A DNA stretch of 24,999 bases from a virus. Shown here one piece after another: positions 2-23,690 of this stretch; within the stretch, counting starts at the first letter, position 1; each line of letters starts with the position of its first letter. Position numbers and translations under genes: made by a program. The stretch is from IMG/VR virus record IMGVR_UViG_3300035698_000125, positions 1-24,999 of that record. One strand, 5' to 3'. The notes beneath the pieces were generated by a model. It made no database searches. It had not been told where the DNA came from and saw only the letters and a program-made list of their open reading frames with translations.

Positions 2-217
2 GCCATTGCTGTGCAAACAGTAGGGCTAGTTTGGTATATGTCATCTCTCGACGCTACAGTTGAGACTAACGCTCGTGAGATTGCACGGCATGAGATAAGG
101 ATCAATGAGGTAGAGAGAACGGCACAGTTACAGGCAGTAATGCTTGGGCGTATTGATGAGAACATAAAAGCTATTCGAGATGCAGTGGACGCAATGAGAG
201 AAAAGGCTGAAAAGTGA
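2..217 (+). CDS. Membrane-anchored coiled-coil protein (5' end outside window)
   Basis: The reading frame is open from the first bases of the window, so the GTG at 11 is probably internal and the true start lies upstream. The visible 72 residues begin with a hydrophobic stretch (about AIAVQTVGLVWYMSSL). A charged helix with heptad-like spacing follows (EIARHEIRINEVE, then LGRIDENIKAIRDAVDAM). This N-in/C-out layout (one membrane helix, then a coiled coil) is common among small phage membrane proteins, including spanin-like and holin-accessory proteins, but no motif fixes its function. The stop overlaps the GTG start of the next gene (GTGA), so the two are translationally coupled. It is the first visible member of a run of seven exported or membrane proteins. 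Confidence 0.6.
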   Translation, partial: AIAVQTVGLVWYMSSLDATVETNAREIARHEIRINEVERTAQLQAVMLGRIDENIKAIRDAVDAMREKAEK

Positions 218-768
218 TTCGTTATTTAACTCTACTAGTATTTATCTTAATAGGTAGCTTTGCCTATGCACAAGTAGATGATGGCGTAATACGCAGTGAT
301 ACTTCTGTTAGCTCTAGCGGTACAATGGATACTACTGTTCGTAGCCCACCTCCCAGTGCAATCTCTCCTCAACTTGGTGTAGGGTCAGGAGATCTTTGTA
401 CCATAGGTGTATCTGGTGCAGTACAAACTCAGATCCTTGGTATATCAATGGGCAAGGTTTACACTGAAGAGAACTGCCTTCGCCTAAAGAACGCTAAGAC
501 TATGTATGATATGGGCATGAAGGTTGCTGCTGTGTCTGTCATGTGTCAGGATGAGAAAGTCTTTGATGCTATGATGAATGCAGGAACTCCCTGCCCTAAG
601 GATGGCCTCATTGGTAATGCAGCTAAACTTGCATGGGAGATGGAAGCCAATACACCTCCTACACAAATTGGTAAGGGTAAAGCAAAGGGGTTAATGAATG
701 TTGATGATGAAACAAAGCTTGGCGTTGGCGCTGTGCTTGGTGTCCTTTTCTTCCTCATGCTTCTCTAA
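214..768 (+). CDS. Exported protein with C-terminal membrane anchor, unknown function
   Basis: This 184-aa protein starts at a GTG inside the stop of the upstream gene. Residues 1-19 form a typical Sec signal peptide (basic MIR, hydrophobic core, SFAYA cleavage site before QVDDG). A Ser/Thr/Pro-rich linker (20-58) leads to a compact core with four cysteines (C62, C88, C111, C127), which could form two disulfides in the periplasm. Residues 170-184 are a terminal hydrophobic helix ending LGVLFFLMLL with nothing after it, so the protein is probably tethered by its C-terminus. From memory, the core resembles uncharacterised proteins of marine phages; I cannot name a family. Its last 71 bases also encode the signal peptide of the next gene in another frame. 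Confidence 0.75.
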   Translation: MIRYLTLLVFILIGSFAYAQVDDGVIRSDTSVSSSGTMDTTVRSPPPSAISPQLGVGSGDLCTIGVSGAVQTQILGISMGKVYTEENCLRLKNAKTMYDMGMKVAAVSVMCQDEKVFDAMMNAGTPCPKDGLIGNAAKLAWEMEANTPPTQIGKGKAKGLMNVDDETKLGVGAVLGVLFFLMLL

Positions 769-1570
769 TCCATACACTTATGGTTCTACAGGGAATGCTG
801 CCCTACAAGGCTTGAGTTGGGACATGGGTTCTGTATTCCCCTCTGTGCCGGGTCTAGATGTTAATGGTTTAATATATCGTTATACAACTATAAAGAATAC
901 AGAAGATAGTATGAAGGTTCACGTTGGTAATCTTAATGCAGAAGGTGGGGGTTACATTTTTAGAGAGACAGATGATTGGTCAGGACTCCCCGGCAATACA
1001 ATCACAAAGTCTTTTTCAGTTGGCAATACCCCTTCTGCTGCTTGGGGTGCTGGTTCAATTGAAGTAGAAGGACAAGGCTCTGTAGATAATGCCTCAGTAA
1101 TTTATAGTTATAGGGTAGATGAATGTTACGATCCTCAATTAAATCCCGGTTGCGCCGGATACGTAGAGCCTGTTCCGACTGTGGTAGAAGTCGTTGTATA
1201 CGATGCACTAGACGATGACTCTGTTGCGGCAGCACTAGATAATGATACAGAATTTAAATACGACAGTGATGGTAATCGCATTGTTGATGAAGAAGACGAA
1301 GAAGAAAAGACTAACCTTGAAAAGGGATTGTCTGCTACTGATAATGCTTTAACTTTGTTTAAGACGCAAGGACAAGCAGACTTAATTATGGCAATCAATC
1401 TACAGACTAACATTGCGATGTACTACAACTCCTCCATTAACGGGGGTGTTTACAAAGATAACAATACTCTTGCTGATTCAAAGCTACCTGACAACCCAAA
1501 GGCGTTTAGAAATCATCTAGCACAACAACTATTGCACGAAGAACTAATGCAGTTGCAATACAAACAATGA
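698..1570 (+). CDS. Exported acidic protein, unknown function
   Basis: This 290-aa protein has several possible starts. ATG 698 is preferred because AAAGGGG at 684-690 lies 7 nt upstream; ATG 704 and 707 are alternatives. The N-terminus (KQSLALALCLVSFSSSCFS, then NPYTYG) is a signal peptide. The C at position 21 is not preceded by a proper lipobox, so a lipoprotein is unlikely. The middle (residues 45-140) is rich in Gly, Ser and beta-branched residues, suggesting a beta-sandwich, and ends with a close Cys pair (C143, C152). Residues 170-203 are strongly acidic (DSDGNRIVDEEDEEE) and might bind Ca2+, although the spacing is not a canonical EF-hand. The C-terminus is helical. It overlaps both neighbours and belongs to the exported-protein block. 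Confidence 0.75.
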   Translation: MLMMKQSLALALCLVSFSSSCFSNPYTYGSTGNAALQGLSWDMGSVFPSVPGLDVNGLIYRYTTIKNTEDSMKVHVGNLNAEGGGYIFRETDDWSGLPGNTITKSFSVGNTPSAAWGAGSIEVEGQGSVDNASVIYSYRVDECYDPQLNPGCAGYVEPVPTVVEVVVYDALDDDSVAAALDNDTEFKYDSDGNRIVDEEDEEEKTNLEKGLSATDNALTLFKTQGQADLIMAINLQTNIAMYYNSSINGGVYKDNNTLADSKLPDNPKAFRNHLAQQLLHEELMQLQYKQ

Positions 1571-1578
1571 GGTTTACT

Positions 1579-2067
1579 ATGAAATATCCTGTTCTAATTC
1601 TTTCTATGTTTGCGCTGCCTGCCTTTGCAGATGTACAAATCTATGGTAACGTAGAGGCGAAGTGCATAATCCAAACAGACAACGCTGGCGTCTACGGAAA
1701 CCCTACAGCTACTAAACTTTCTACTGTACCTGCTGATGGTGGTGTCTTGCCAATTGTTCGCTATGACGTAGCGGTTGCTGACTACTACACAGCCCGTATA
1801 ACAAGCCCTACAGAGTTCTCCTCTTCCCCTTCACTAACTGATACAGTTACGTGGACAGGCTCTTCCTCTGTATCCCAAACTAGTGATGCAACTATGGCTG
1901 CGTATGATACTAACAAAATAGTCTATGGCAACGTAACTGACTTTGGATTGACAGTTGCTGGCAGCACTTGGTTTTCAACAAGCTCTACCGCTGTGTATGG
2001 CGTAGACAAATCATTCCCCGGTGGTACATATATAGCCGTTGTACAGGCAGAGTGTATTGCTAACTAA
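1579..2067 (+). CDS. Exported beta-rich protein, possibly pilin-like
   Basis: The start at ATG 1579 is chosen because GAGG at 1569-1572 sits 6 nt upstream. An in-frame ATG at 1567, which overlaps the previous stop, would add four residues. The 162-aa product has a clean signal peptide (MKYPVLILSMFALPAFA, then DVQIYG). The mature part is almost entirely short beta-strand-like stretches rich in Thr, Ser, Val and Gly. It has one cysteine near its start (C29) and one near its end (C159 in VQAECIAN). An all-beta secreted subunit with an N- to C-terminal disulfide resembles chaperone-usher or spore-coat-U-type pilins. This is a fold-level impression, not a family match. The end of the gene overlaps the next start. 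Confidence 0.7.
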   Translation: MKYPVLILSMFALPAFADVQIYGNVEAKCIIQTDNAGVYGNPTATKLSTVPADGGVLPIVRYDVAVADYYTARITSPTEFSSSPSLTDTVTWTGSSSVSQTSDATMAAYDTNKIVYGNVTDFGLTVAGSTWFSTSSTAVYGVDKSFPGGTYIAVVQAECIAN

Positions 2068-2443
2068 AATAACTTTAATACTTCTAGGTTGGGCATCAGC
2101 GTTATCAGCACACGAGATGACACCTGCCTACCCAGAGTTAAAACCCTCTTATGTAGTAGGTATATTTAAAGCAGAGATGTCTCTCTTTAATTATAGATCA
2201 GATGTAGAGTACTATCAAGTAGATATGTTTGATAAGGATTGGCTTAACGTATCTTTCTCTACAACCTATAGAGTGCTAAAGGTTAAGCATGGTCAGCGTA
2301 AAGACTTTGATGTGTATATACGTAGTGAGGACATAAACCGTGCCGTGTATATATGTACAACATCTAAGATTAAAAGAAGTAAGGATGTTACCACTCTAGT
2401 TTCCTCTCGAATCTGCTCAAAGCTTGGTGGAGATAATAAATGA
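2057..2443 (+). CDS. Exported Ig-like protein, possibly a pilus-chaperone-type domain
   Basis: TTG 2057 is preferred as the start: AGGCAGAG (2045-2052) precedes it, and it yields a compact signal peptide (LTKITLILLGWASALSA, then HEM). TTG 2039 is the longer alternative. The roughly 110-aa mature domain alternates strands and turns: YVVGIFKAEMSLFNY, EYYQVDMFDKDWLNVSF, YRVLKVKHGQRKDFDVYIR, RAVYICTTSKI. This is reminiscent of the first Ig-like domain of periplasmic pilus chaperones (PapD type), but the second domain and the signature Arg/Lys pair cannot be confirmed. Two cysteines (in YICTT and SRICSK) could pair. It follows directly after the pilin-like gene, which is the normal order for a subunit and its chaperone. 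The stop overlaps the next ATG (ATGA). Confidence 0.65.
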   Translation: MLTKITLILLGWASALSAHEMTPAYPELKPSYVVGIFKAEMSLFNYRSDVEYYQVDMFDKDWLNVSFSTTYRVLKVKHGQRKDFDVYIRSEDINRAVYICTTSKIKRSKDVTTLVSSRICSKLGGDNK

Positions 2444-2835
2444 GACTAGCAGTTGCCTTATTCTTTTTAGCTACATCAGTCAGTGCAGAGAGCAGTTCTC
2501 TTGCACTACAGCTTCCAAGCCCACCAATGAACTATCAATCAGATAGGTTCCGGGCTGGTAACTTAGACTGTTCAAACGCTGTTGGTGGTAGTACTACACT
2601 TGAGTTTGGTACTACAGGGGTGCTAACTAATATGAACAGTGTAGCTGAAGGTAAAGACATTGGTATATACGCCCGGATAGTTATACCTCTAGATAAGCCT
2701 AGAACTAGAATAAACTGTGATGACTTGTTTCAATTAGAATTATCACAGCGGCGATTAGAAGTACAAGTCCTTCGTGCAGAACTAGATCAAATGAAACGTA
2801 TGCAATCAAACAATTCTACGGACTTTGAAAACTAA
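2440..2835 (+). CDS. Exported protein with C-terminal coiled coil, unknown function
   Basis: This 131-aa protein starts at an ATGA overlap with its upstream neighbour. The signal peptide is short and typical (MRLAVALFFLATSVSA, then ESSS). The mature protein has a beta-like core, RAGNLDCSNAVGGSTTLEF to IGIYARIVIPLDKP, with two cysteines (C44, C93). A basic/acidic amphipathic helix follows (residues 97-121; LSQRRLEVQVLRAELDQM) with clear heptad spacing, so oligomerisation is likely. From memory, similar proteins occur in marine phages without known function. It ends in a TAATG junction with the following membrane protein, suggesting the two are made in fixed proportion. Confidence 0.7.
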   Translation: MRLAVALFFLATSVSAESSSLALQLPSPPMNYQSDRFRAGNLDCSNAVGGSTTLEFGTTGVLTNMNSVAEGKDIGIYARIVIPLDKPRTRINCDDLFQLELSQRRLEVQVLRAELDQMKRMQSNNSTDFEN

Positions 2836-3380
2836 TGGTTGATCTAACTAAAGTAGCAGGAGATCTTGATGGCCTTGCTGATCGTCAGATAAAAGCTGGA
2901 GGGTTTAAGTTAACCATTACTTCAGTGTTTGCAATCTTTGCTTTCATATCTACAATTGTAGGGGGTCTGTATGGTGGCTTTGTTCTATACCAAAAGATAG
3001 AAGGCATAGCAGGGTTAGACCTTGGTGCTTATCAACAGCAAATGAAGGTCATGGATGCCAAGGTGTCCGGTATATCAGTCAAGGTTGAAGAGAGCGTTGA
3101 GTATACAAGAGACATCAAGAATGGATTACGTGAAGACATCCTTGGTATTGAAAAACAAACTGACCGTGTTGAAGATATGGTTAGGGAACTTGAAGACAGC
3201 GTTGATAAGTTACTTCGTGAATATGAAACTAAGATACGTAGCTTGATAGATGCAGCTGACATACGCTTTGAGAGTCAGCGTGAGAGAGTTAGAATATCAC
3301 AAGACTCAGCCATGAAAGAACTAGAAGAGCGCCTTAACGACAAGCTACAACGTGCACTAGATAACCCGTTAGCTGATTAA
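2835..3380 (+). CDS. Membrane protein with long coiled coil, unknown function
   Basis: This 181-aa protein starts at a TAATG junction. A soluble N-terminus (1-24) is followed by one strong membrane helix (about 25-52, LTITSVFAIFAFISTIVGGLYGGFVLY). A charged helical region then runs over residues 68-178 with repeated hydrophobic spacing (for example VEDMVRELEDSVDKLLREY and ISQDSAMKELEERLNDKLQ). There is no signal-peptide cleavage site, so the hydrophobic segment is probably a membrane anchor with the coiled coil on one side. A scaffold or spanin-like bridging role is conceivable, but nothing proves it. It is the last gene of the exported and membrane block; a 40-bp gap follows. Confidence 0.7.
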   Translation: MVDLTKVAGDLDGLADRQIKAGGFKLTITSVFAIFAFISTIVGGLYGGFVLYQKIEGIAGLDLGAYQQQMKVMDAKVSGISVKVEESVEYTRDIKNGLREDILGIEKQTDRVEDMVRELEDSVDKLLREYETKIRSLIDAADIRFESQRERVRISQDSAMKELEERLNDKLQRALDNPLAD

Positions 3381-3420: not shown

Positions 3421-3843
3421 ATGCAAATAGATAACAATAAAGCCTTAGCTGATGGTCTAGAACTCTTTAAGAACAGTAAATGGCACAAGGTTTATAACGT
3501 AGACGATGTATATAGATATCTTATTGCCCCTATAAAGTATAATAGAATTAGATTGTACTATCAAGAAGACAAGCCAATAGGTTTAGTTACTTGGTGCTGG
3601 TTGACTAAAGAAGATGGACAACGCTTTCTAAACAATGATTACTACATAACAGAGAGTGACTATGTTTCAGATACAAATGAAGAGCTTTGGGGAATAGAGT
3701 TACTTGCTCCTTATGGAAATGCAAGACAGGTCTTTAGCCTTATAAGAAAAGAACACACCAATGTGTACGGACGTAACGAAAAAGTAAATTGGCGCAGGCT
3801 ACATGAACCAAGCAAAAGACATACAAGAGAGTTTAAAAAATGA
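3421..3843 (+). CDS. HlyC/CyaC-like toxin-activating lysine acyltransferase
   Basis: This 140-aa protein aligns by eye along most of its length with HlyC-family acyltransferases, which move a fatty acyl group from acyl carrier protein to internal lysines of RTX toxins. The family's catalytic His is present (H22 in SKWHKVYNVDDVYRYL; HlyC H23). The core follows as in HlyC: IAPIKYNRIRLYYQEDKPIG, VTWCWL, an acidic helix, then LWGIELLAPYGNARQ against HlyC KWFIDWIAPFG. The essential HlyC Asp92 is replaced by Glu here (E93). The C-terminus (VNWRRLHEPSKRHTREFKK) is shorter and more basic than usual; the family is about 170 aa. No RTX nonapeptide repeat occurs in the window, so its substrate is unknown. 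It is coupled to the 711-aa protein gene by ATGA. Confidence 0.75.
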   Translation: MQIDNNKALADGLELFKNSKWHKVYNVDDVYRYLIAPIKYNRIRLYYQEDKPIGLVTWCWLTKEDGQRFLNNDYYITESDYVSDTNEELWGIELLAPYGNARQVFSLIRKEHTNVYGRNEKVNWRRLHEPSKRHTREFKK

Positions 3844-5975: not shown

Positions 5976-6034
5976 TCCTCAAGATGTTACTAACAATAAT
6001 ACTAGCGACACAGTTACAAACGAAAGTACCCAAT

Positions 6035-7384
6035 ATGGCATATGGCTCAACAAAAAGTATATCTGACTCCATTCTAGCGGCTACTGATGGTGAGTCTATC
6101 CAAGAACAAATTGATGCATACATGCAGAGTTCTGCTTCAGGAACCACAGGTGATGGGCTTATAGCAGCTGCAACTATCAATAAAGATACAGATGCTGCTG
6201 TGTCAGCTATGCGTAAGAAGTCCTTAGGTGCACGAGAAAGCCAAGCTAAAGCACAGAAGGCTGTCGTTAACGATAAGCTTGCTAGTGTGGGTAGAGATTG
6301 GCTGACACTGATGCAGGGGGACGGGCAGGCTAACGCTTCTGAGATTTCAGAGAAGCGCTCTATTCTTCTGGCTGAAGTTGAAGACATTCCAACTACTGAA
6401 TTAACAGACGATCAATACTTCTTGCGTACAGGTAAGAAGCGCCCTGATTACGCTGATGACCCTGATGTATTTACAAAGGATGGCAGTGATAACATCTCTG
6501 GCTCTGGTGCAAGTCTCGCTGAGCGTTCAGGTGGGGTAATGAACTTTACAGCAGGTGATATAGACTTGAGTAAGTTTGTAGTGTTTGATGATAGTGGTGA
6601 TACAGGTAATGGCTTGATGAGTAGCCCTAGACCTAAAGTTAGGCCTGATAACGCTCCTGTAGTTACGTCTAACAGAGATCCTGTAAAAGTTGCCGTTGAT
6701 ACCACTACAACTAGTTCTAACGTTAAAAAGATACAACAAGCCTTAACTACTATGGGCTTTAAACCTAACGGTGTAGATGGTGCTATGGGCGGTGGAACAG
6801 CTAGAGCTTTAAGAAAGTTTCAAGCTGCAAACGACTTACCTATTACAGGAAAGCTAACTCAAGAAGTAGCAGATCTTTTAACCAACGGTACGTCCATTAC
6901 TTACCCCGACAGGCCTGTACCTTTTGCTGTACCAGAAGACATTGAAGATAATCTATTTGATATCTTTAAAGTAGAAGTTGGTTACATTGAAAGTAAAAAC
7001 AAATACAACATTAAAGGGGGGTCTGGTAATCATTATGATGGTAGATATCAGATGGGAGAAGCCGCAAAGAAAGATGCAGGTCGTGCTTTAGGTATATCTT
7101 TGAAACATGATGCAGCCTCTCGTAAGGCGTTTAGAGAGGATTCAGCCCTTCAAGACAAAGCATTTAAAGCCTATACAGAAATGAATCATACTCACCTGAC
7201 TAGGAACTCTGAGAAGTACAGGAATATGTCAGTAGAAGAGAAGCTTGGTATACTAGGCTACGCACATAACCAAGGGGCTACTGCTGCAGAAGAGTATTTG
7301 TTTACAGGTATTGTAGGAACAGATGCCAACGATACTAAAGGCACTAGATATACAGACGCTATTGCAAAGGCTTTAGGTAACTAA
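6035..7384 (+). CDS. Peptidoglycan hydrolase with PG-binding domain and lysozyme-like domain
   Basis: ATG 6035 (MAYGSTKSIS) is preferred because GAAAG lies 8 nt upstream. An in-frame ATG at 5984 would add 17 residues with no visible ribosome site. The 449-aa protein has a polar N-terminal region, then a PG_binding_1-type domain (about 227-281: NVKKIQQALTTMGFKPNGVD, ARALRKFQAANDLPITGKLT). The C-terminal lysozyme/transglycosylase-like domain starts with the candidate catalytic E319 in GYIESKNKYNIKGG and continues GRYQMGEAAKKDAGRALG. That Glu plus downstream Gly-x-Tyr-Gln pattern is typical of SLT/lysozyme-like folds. There is no convincing signal peptide, so it is either a virion-carried hydrolase or an endolysin released by a holin. 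The holin-like gene follows at a TAATG junction. Confidence 0.8.
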   Translation: MAYGSTKSISDSILAATDGESIQEQIDAYMQSSASGTTGDGLIAAATINKDTDAAVSAMRKKSLGARESQAKAQKAVVNDKLASVGRDWLTLMQGDGQANASEISEKRSILLAEVEDIPTTELTDDQYFLRTGKKRPDYADDPDVFTKDGSDNISGSGASLAERSGGVMNFTAGDIDLSKFVVFDDSGDTGNGLMSSPRPKVRPDNAPVVTSNRDPVKVAVDTTTTSSNVKKIQQALTTMGFKPNGVDGAMGGGTARALRKFQAANDLPITGKLTQEVADLLTNGTSITYPDRPVPFAVPEDIEDNLFDIFKVEVGYIESKNKYNIKGGSGNHYDGRYQMGEAAKKDAGRALGISLKHDAASRKAFREDSALQDKAFKAYTEMNHTHLTRNSEKYRNMSVEEKLGILGYAHNQGATAAEEYLFTGIVGTDANDTKGTRYTDAIAKALGN

Positions 7385-22105: not shown

Positions 22106-23338
22106 CTATGCTAAGTACTGTGCCCTAGCTCCATCCAATTCACACGTTACCTTACCGTGCCACCCTCCCTTAAGCTTATTCTTTGCAATGATCAAGTACC
22201 TTTGTGAATCTACTGTGTCATCCTCTTTTGCCTCAAGCATAGGGTTCTTACTAATCAGTACCATGAGGTCAGCTTCCGCTGCCTTGCCTGTCTTACTACC
22301 TTCCAGCATAGATTGATCTACATTTATCTTACCTTCAGCATCAGCTGATAGCTGGGACATCCATATCATTGCACAGTTGTACTGCTTGGCTATGTTACGT
22401 GCATGGATGGCAGCATTCTTAAGGTACACATCTGTCTTGTCACTGTTCTTAACAGCAAACTTATCACCCATGTCCAACACTACAATGTCAGGCTTGTAAG
22501 CCTTGATGATAGCCTCAACCCACGCCATGTCCTTACCTGTACTGTCATACAGATTGATCTGATCACGTACTGGTTGGTAGCGTGATGCAGCTAAGGCATA
22601 GTTACCCTTGACCTCCTCCATAGATAGGGATGATGCAGCACTAAGGTAACGTGCACCCACCCGTTCATAAGCTTCCTCGTTGCAGAGGATGAGACACTTA
22701 GCACCCTGAGATGCAAAGCCACCCGGCGCAGCCAACAAGGATGCATGGAAGGATGTCTTACCTGTGTTAGGACGTGCCCCTACTATGATCAAGTGACCAC
22801 CACTGATACCCTCTACCCTACGTGTGAGGCTAGGGATGTTAAACTTCCATTGTGATTGGATATCATTGGACTTGAGTAGGTGATCAATAGATATGTCACC
22901 GAAGTCTAACTTAAGGTTAGGGGTGAAGTCATCCTGATACATCTGCAATAGATTGCGTACAGGCTCAAGGCTATCCAATGATCCGTTAACGTAGTCGAAC
23001 CCTATGTTGGCAAGCTTGTTACCTAGTACCTGTTGGAATAGTTTAGACAGTACCTCATCAGCTATGTCCTTGTTCATAGATTCTTCACGAGACACACGCT
23101 TGAATAGATCATTGTACACCTGCTTGTTAGCAGTGGTCATCGTGGTGTTGTGAGCAAAGAACAATGCCTCAAGCTCAGATGCAGTTAAGGTACGTTCATA
23201 TGTATTCATTGCGTAGTCTAGTGTCTGCTTAATCTTACGTACATCTTTACTGAACAACTCATCAGGGCAACGTATACCCTTGTTGTTGTCATAGAACTCC
23301 TTGTCCATAAGAGTTCTTATTAAGGCTAATTCCATCAT
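22106..23338 (-). CDS. DnaB-family replicative helicase
   Basis: The 410-aa protein has a helical N-terminal domain (1-140, DnaB-N-like) and a RecA-fold motor. Motifs: Walker A GARPNTGKTSF (K194, T195), the post-Walker CNEE (220-222), Walker B DIVVLDMGD (D289), motif H3 IWMSQLSADA (Q329), and KNKLKGG near the C-terminus, as in DnaB and T7 gp4. No zinc-binding or TOPRIM primase domain is attached, so priming must come from elsewhere (host DnaG or a phage gene outside the window). Two consecutive ATGs (23338, 23335) can serve as the start; the first overlaps the previous stop (ATGA). It probably unwinds DNA for the PolA polymerase encoded 14 bp downstream. Confidence 0.9.
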   Translation of the reverse strand: MMELALIRTLMDKEFYDNNKGIRCPDELFSKDVRKIKQTLDYAMNTYERTLTASELEALFFAHNTTMTTANKQVYNDLFKRVSREESMNKDIADEVLSKLFQQVLGNKLANIGFDYVNGSLDSLEPVRNLLQMYQDDFTPNLKLDFGDISIDHLLKSNDIQSQWKFNIPSLTRRVEGISGGHLIIVGARPNTGKTSFHASLLAAPGGFASQGAKCLILCNEEAYERVGARYLSAASSLSMEEVKGNYALAASRYQPVRDQINLYDSTGKDMAWVEAIIKAYKPDIVVLDMGDKFAVKNSDKTDVYLKNAAIHARNIAKQYNCAMIWMSQLSADAEGKINVDQSMLEGSKTGKAAEADLMVLISKNPMLEAKEDDTVDSQRYLIIAKNKLKGGWHGKVTCELDGARAQYLA

Positions 23339-23523
23339 TGCTTATCTCCGTACATAATCTTATCTAGAACAACTCGTACTGCAATGTAGGGCCACATTAA
23401 AGATACAAGGAATGGGCCATGCACATCTTCCTCCTCTGCTTCAAGTACAGTAAGATACATTATTACACCCAACAGGTACATAATAAACGCACCACCTAAG
23501 ACATACCAATATTCATCTTGCAT
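23335..23523 (-). CDS. Small membrane protein, unknown function
   Basis: The start is ATG 23523, because AGAGGAAG lies a few bases upstream and it forms a TAATG junction with the zinc-ribbon gene; a TTG at 23541 is a weaker longer start. The 62-aa product (MQDEYWYVLGG...) has one strong membrane helix (GGAFIMYLLGVIMYLTVL) followed by an acidic turn (EAEEEDVHG). A second hydrophobic segment (FLVSLMWPYIAVRVVLDKI) is next. It may be an early inner-membrane protein affecting the host, but nothing in the sequence shows its role. It ends in an ATGA overlap with the helicase gene. Confidence 0.65.
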   Translation of the reverse strand: MQDEYWYVLGGAFIMYLLGVIMYLTVLEAEEEDVHGPFLVSLMWPYIAVRVVLDKIMYGDKQ

Positions 23524-23690
23524 TATTCTTCCTCTAAACAAAAGCCACAGAAGTTACTCTTCGATGGGACGCCACAACTAACACATGTGGATACGAAGTT
23601 GTTAGCCTTCTCACGTTCAATAGATCTCCTACGTTCCTCCGGTGTCATAGGCCTAATGCCTACCTCTAAGGGCTTATCGTTGTCCGTCAT
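23523..23690 (-). CDS. 55-aa zinc-ribbon protein
   Basis: This short frame encodes a basic N-terminal helix (RPMTPEERRRSIEREKANNF) followed by a compact CxxC-x8-CxxC knuckle (C36, C39, C48, C51 in TCVSCGVPSKSNFCGFC) and an acidic end (LEEE). That is a classic zinc ribbon, likely to bind nucleic acid or a protein partner such as host RNA polymerase. The stop overlaps the next ATG (TAATG), and the start overlaps the upstream gene by 17 bases. Zn-ribbon miniproteins are frequent among phage early genes; no specific family is recognised. Confidence 0.75.
   Translation of the reverse strand: MTDNDKPLEVGIRPMTPEERRRSIEREKANNFVSTCVSCGVPSKSNFCGFCLEEE

Follow-up and report, generated by a model that had tools for sequence, protein, structure and literature searches.

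The 24,999 bases of IMG/VR virus record IMGVR_UViG_3300035698_000125 analysed here, called the window throughout, open with a block of seven genes, p1-p7, of which p2-p7 are inherited as one unit. The block can safely be described as a phage-specific, co-inherited and exported late cassette that includes a chaperone-like fold. Judged from sequence, it probably encodes a late envelope complex in the general sense. That this complex acts at or near lysis is the best explanation of the whole and is put forward tentatively, as something short of probable; its weakest step, a role in lysis or egress as such, is more doubtful. The seven genes are as follows.

p1: 2-217, plus strand; C-terminal part of a transmembrane (TM) and coiled-coil protein, truncated at its 5′ end by the start of the window
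p2: 214-768, plus strand; signal peptide, Pro-rich SPPPSAI motif, a domain with four invariant cysteines, C-terminal TM segment
p3: 698-1570, plus strand; exported protein of 290 amino acids (aa) with two conserved cysteines in its mature part, an acidic middle and a conserved C-terminal tail
p4: 1567-2067, plus strand; exported, pilin-like protein of immunoglobulin (Ig) type with two invariant cysteines and a hydrophobic N-terminal segment, DVQIYGNVEAKC
p5: 2057-2443, plus strand; exported single-domain protein of 128 aa with the predicted fold of a PapD-like chaperone N domain; TTG start
p6: 2440-2835, plus strand; exported protein with two conserved cysteines and a predicted C-terminal coiled coil
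p7: 2835-3380, plus strand; N-in single-TM protein with a long coiled coil and a near-invariant RALDNPLAD tail

All seven open reading frames (ORFs) were confirmed as the first-pass annotation of this DNA had described them. Its details are amended as follows: p5 most likely starts at the TTG at 2057 rather than at 2039, p2 carries an additional C-terminal TM segment, and conservation as a unit covers p2-p7, with more variation in p1.

Co-inheritance and export

Cassette families were gathered by scanning marine viral contigs with p6 and p5, both of which belong to large families there. Among 138 related viral loci, 97 carry the full p2-p7 set in order, 39 are interrupted by contig ends and two are partial for other reasons. 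The overlapping starts and stops reported earlier are present and fixed among relatives: p2 and p3 share 71 bases, p3 and p4 share 4, p4 and p5 share 11 (the p4 stop being overlapped by the TTG start of p5), p5 and p6 share 4, and p6 and p7 share a single base. Medians of the pairwise ratio of nonsynonymous to synonymous substitution (dN/dS) range from 0.07 to 0.15, the p2 and p3 values being biased by their mutual overlap. Because order and overlaps are fixed and the genes are under purifying selection, the cassette goes beyond a chance arrangement. The genome backbones vary: the window has T7-like internal virion proteins, locus L126 a lambda J-like central fibre and locus L030 a podovirus-type portal. 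The overlap at 698-768 is read in two frames, one giving the C-terminal TM segment of p2 and the other the p3 signal peptide, an arrangement kept in nearly all relatives.

Signal peptides were scored with a home-made Sec score against 500 shuffles of each protein's own N-terminus. The scores of p2, p3, p4 and p6 exceed all 500 shuffles, and that of p5 exceeds 480, the remaining 20 reaching it. Among the other window genes scored, a single short TM protein (23335-23541) equals the scores of p2-p6. The signal peptides are of the Sec/signal peptidase I (SPase I) type with AxA-type cleavage sites, in keeping with the earlier claim of five Sec-signal genes. The cysteines of the mature proteins, which had been proposed to be paired, are invariant or nearly so and always even in number: four of four in p2 (28 sequences), two kept in 31 of 32 p3 sequences, two of two in both p4 (30 sequences) and p5 (32 sequences), and two conserved in p6.

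These features bear on the reading that the cassette encodes ordinary structural or internal virion proteins, whose hydrophobic N-termini merely mimic signal peptides. The block does lie among late genes and adjoins genes of internal-virion type (iv711, g823 and g1194). The conserved AxA-type sites and cysteines, the specificity of the signal-peptide score to p2-p6 and the PapD-like fold discussed below leave this reading barely credible.

The flanking genes had been described as membrane-anchored coiled-coil proteins, which holds for both. p7 has a single TM segment close to its N-terminus followed by a coiled coil, and lacks cysteine; relatives of p1, when complete, are 88 aa long with one N-terminal TM segment and a coiled coil. 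The NPL tail of p7 is found in 126 of 126 p7 copies and in none of 893 other neighbourhood ORFs. Weak PHROG matches of p1 include the Rz-like spanin family phrog_739 (E 0.055), and several matches to PHROG_739 in cassette genomes are p1-like proteins (E 1e-4 to 1e-5). As the family is also matched in unrelated control genomes (11 of 14), these "Rz-like spanin" matches are uninformative, that of Vibrio phage Thalassa excepted.

Folds of p5 and p4

The AlphaFold2 (AF2) model of p5 (predicted local distance difference test score, pLDDT, 84) comprises one Ig-like domain. When it was compared with the PDB by Foldseek, 42 of the top 50 matches were periplasmic chaperones of chaperone-usher systems, among them DraB (the best, E 4e-4), FaeE, SfaE, PapD, FimC (TMq 0.60) and Caf1M; a single E-value in this list falls below 0.001. 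PapD-like periplasmic chaperones share this modelled fold in their N domain. For the p4 model (pLDDT 83.5) CfaB ranks first (TMq 0.47, E 3e-3); further matches include the PapG pilin domain, FimG and Caf1, and p4 appears to resemble pilins less clearly than p5 resembles chaperones. After its signal peptide, the segment DVQIYGNVEAKC is conserved, alternates in hydrophobicity and is of low pLDDT and unstructured in the monomer model; it is a possible donor strand. Together, a PapD-like p5 and a pilin-like p4 favour the surface structure or envelope assembly that the first-pass annotation had listed among its options.

Profiles of p5 and p4 gave chance matches or none against PDB sequences, and nothing convincing was found for p4 among viral predicted structures. 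An identity with Curli/CsgG, an idea at first sight, was dropped for want of a family match.

Relatives in other phages

Homologues of the cassette genes recur across several phage lineages. Four genome types of Vibrio phage have adjacent p4-like and p5-like genes, and a p6-like gene was identified in Thalassa, 264E42.1 and 1.205.O. This relationship is supported by BLASTP for p6 (4e-14), by hhalign for p4 (4e-5) and by a weak match of p5 to PHROG_25455 (5e-4). By hhalign alone, the match of p5 to Thalassa gp151 is weak (E 0.008, probability 5%), and its assignment for that reason also rests on gene order and on shared Cys and Tyr positions. Neither p4 nor p5 matched phage records by direct tblastn; p5 was linked to them only via the Vibrio homologue. 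Beyond these, p2 matches PHROG_20531 (E 8e-15), p6 matches PHROG_37374 (E 1.5e-9), and PHROG_25895 is the Vibrio p4-like family. All four are phage families without a name, a proposed function or a link to one another.

Conservation of gene order across HMO-2011-type and pelagiphage genomes was put forward as a check with the first-pass annotation. Pelagiphages and roseophages carry p2 homologues and a p7-like gene (E 4e-15 in HTVC115P; E 4e-5 for CRP-207 gp73, by hhalign with the p7 profile); the middle gene, in the position of p3, has little or no sequence similarity to p3, the match to HTVC115P gp53 being confined to the C-terminal tail (E 9e-4). In HTVC023P, the protein in the p3 position was rejected as a p3 homologue, having no similarity, and gp48 was rejected as a p7 homologue, its match not being significant over its length. 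CRP-207 gp73 (L003:42027-42605) and CRP-810 gp51 (L151:9369-9791) are labelled lysozyme or putative lysozyme but have the look of coiled-coil proteins with a TM segment and an NPL tail, and these labels are likely misannotations. Achromobacter phage JWAlpha gp25 (L154:3518-4432) carries a p2-like C-terminal domain in an exported protein (tblastn E 3e-4); its neighbours are N4 gp22- and gp24-like genes, not late genes.

Among about 400 sampled Pseudomonadota genomes, the cassette was not found outside one phage-contaminated metagenome-assembled genome (MAG), and a cellular origin is unsupported. This MAG, "Rhodobacteraceae bacterium Water_Bin34" (L143-L146, L240-L244), contains five copies of p3, each on a different contig, which suggests that several phage genomes were binned with it.

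Gene neighbourhood and possible roles

Features within 3.5 kb of the cassette were counted at the 30 loci whose downstream sequence extends to 2.5 kb or more. At 20 of them an EF-hand/TM protein, a holin-like protein with three TM segments or an endolysin of GH19/GH108 type lies downstream. This neighbourhood favours a role at the time of lysis, and, the cassette usually standing directly before holin and endolysin genes, a role in the outer envelope at lysis is the most likely one. A recurrent gene 3′ of p7 (L030:10917-11234 and relatives, cluster c7) encodes one EF-hand motif followed by two TM segments.

The envelope-level cassette proposed in the first-pass annotation is well supported by the signal peptides, the cysteines, the synteny, the inner-membrane (IM) anchored partners and, in most relatives, the position beside lysis genes. 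As to the three functions suggested there (superinfection exclusion, a surface structure, or a lysis/spanin apparatus), the sequence does not separate them. In the mechanism proposed here, the products of p1-p7 would appear late and assemble into a phage-specific complex outside the cytoplasm. In the periplasm p5 would cap p4, the Ig-type subunit, until p4 is completed by another strand, either its own N-terminal segment or a partner. Anchoring of the assembly in the IM would fall to p2, p7 and p1, with the coiled coil of p7 spanning the periplasm and its NPL tail docking onto p3 or p2. It is likely that p5 guards p4 and that p7, p2 and p1 tether the remainder. The structure would stay in, or reach, the outer envelope, where its likeliest job would be preparing or breaking that envelope at lysis and release.

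Several observations weigh against this explanation. The signal peptides of p2-p6 are predicted from a home-made score and from conservation. p5 has no second PapD domain, and so falls short of the two Ig domains that define such chaperones; members of the p4 and p5 alignments match no pilin or chaperone Pfam family, and the structural matches of p4 are modest, with unrelated beta proteins (mu2-adaptin, SdrE) interspersed among them. No usher (PF00577) was found in 20 cassette-bearing records, several of them incomplete, while an E. coli control was positive. At 10 of the 30 loci, mostly in window-like genomes, other late genes follow instead of holin or endolysin. Finally, Thalassa already encodes a spanin pair, with a separate Rz-like spanin elsewhere in its genome.

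Among known systems, chaperone-usher fimbriae share with the cassette the chaperone N-domain fold of p5 and the overlap of subunit and chaperone genes; p4 resembles CfaB, FimG and Caf1 and has invariant cysteines and, near its N-terminus, a hydrophobic segment that is conserved and unstructured in the model. The cassette differs in its one-domain chaperone, in having no usher in the 20 records and no sequence-family match, in its phage-encoded nature, its IM-anchored coiled-coil partners and its location in the lysis region. Its pieces resemble fimbrial biogenesis and it would work like the chaperone-usher family, but it is not filed there because a two-domain chaperone and, in those records, an usher were not found; with no usher the structure would not be extruded as a classical pilus. 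A widespread marine phage module that builds an usher-less, chaperone-assisted and donor-strand-completed assembly in the periplasm, tethered to the IM and used at lysis or at the cell surface, is possible though doubtful; it would then be a phage-owned relative of fimbrial assembly in principle and not in descent. The long genes that precede the Vibrio trio were considered as ushers and rejected, being fibre-like and without a signal peptide.

Spanins (Rz/Rz1, T1 gp11) resemble the cassette as late envelope genes beside holin and endolysin genes, with overlapping starts and conserved cysteines, and p7 and p1 are predicted, as in two-component spanins, to be type II IM proteins with a periplasmic coiled coil. 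A strict replacement, with p1 or p7 as the i-spanin and exported p2, p3 or p6 as the outer-membrane half, would build on this topology and on the holin and endolysin neighbours. No member of the Rz family PF03245 was found in 21 cassette records, many of them incomplete, and most cassettes have no small ORF with a lipobox beside them. A survey of 677 phages infecting Gram-negative hosts left 91 in which spanins were not found (PMC6139136), and the cassette bears on how some of these breach the outer membrane. This replacement is nonetheless improbable: the p2-p6 cleavage sites are of SPase I type, there is no outer-membrane lipoprotein partner, p7 has no cysteine, and six or seven genes with Ig-fold subunits differ from the spanin pattern. 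For p4-p6, the spanin option of the first-pass annotation is disfavoured in its canonical form because their trio coexists in Thalassa with that phage's own Rz-like spanin.

A receptor shield, in which exported proteins coat or jam an envelope receptor and block both re-infection and binding of progeny to debris, would be a form of superinfection exclusion. T5 Llp blocks the receptor FhuA. The gene for Llp adjoins a receptor-binding gene (PMC9586334), and in the four Vibrio genome types the p4-p5(-p6)-like genes similarly lie directly after long fibre-like genes and before a small lipoprotein. Many marine cassettes also have tail-fibre-like genes upstream; the genes immediately upstream in one genome type are instead those for portal, scaffold and major capsid protein. 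The adjoining small lipoprotein is seen in the Vibrio clusters only, and the window members, unlike Llp/Cor of T5 and T1, have no lipobox and form a late, lysis-side, multi-gene set with membrane-anchored partners. Three IM-anchored members are unneeded for a receptor plug, and about six proteins stand where one usually suffices, so a shield is unlikely. In Vibrio phage D81, a few kb separate the p4-p5-like genes from a gene annotated as PagP (lipid A acylation; L237:10224-10661).

The fibre genes also bear on post-lysis virion decoration, in which an adhesive fibre that has matured under the oxidising conditions of the periplasm would bind released particles and aid in finding or holding the next host. 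The pilin-like p4 and its putative chaperone p5 adjoin tail-fibre genes, disulfide-rich proteins would fail to fold in the cytoplasm, where tails are assembled, and a positional counterpart of p3 has a weak carbohydrate-binding match (CBM_4_9, E 0.009). No precedent appeared in the literature searched, and the IM anchors p2 and p7 argue for retention in the cell, making decoration very improbable.

For their action on the envelope, phages usually rely on small late proteins, between one and three of them. An exported unit of six genes with a PapD-like fold that moves between phage genome types would be a new kind of phage envelope machine, and the envelope complex at or near lysis is new, in our judgement, by its distance from known kinds, not by proven function. 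No description of such a cassette was found in the literature searched, mostly outside subscription journals. Partial cassettes exist in cultured phages (Vibrio Thalassavirus, HTVC115P and CRP-207), which makes the question directly testable.

The replication genes of the window have their nearest relatives in Roseobacter phages, among them CRP-207, a phage treated in a paper on the HMO-2011 type (PMC9038755). The first gene 3′ of p7, followed by genes of internal-virion type, is:

HlyC-like acyltransferase: 3421-3843, plus strand; toxin-activating acyltransferase type (Pfam PF02794, E 1e-17), separating the cassette from the internal virion genes

HTVC115P gp46, in the late region of that phage, is annotated in the same way, and the window product is possibly a phage late-gene acyltransferase and not a toxin activator. 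Among the internal virion genes, positions 5984-7384 (plus strand) encode a protein of 466 aa with PG_binding_1 and an endolysin-type C-terminal domain, which could be an endolysin or a virion-borne muralytic enzyme.

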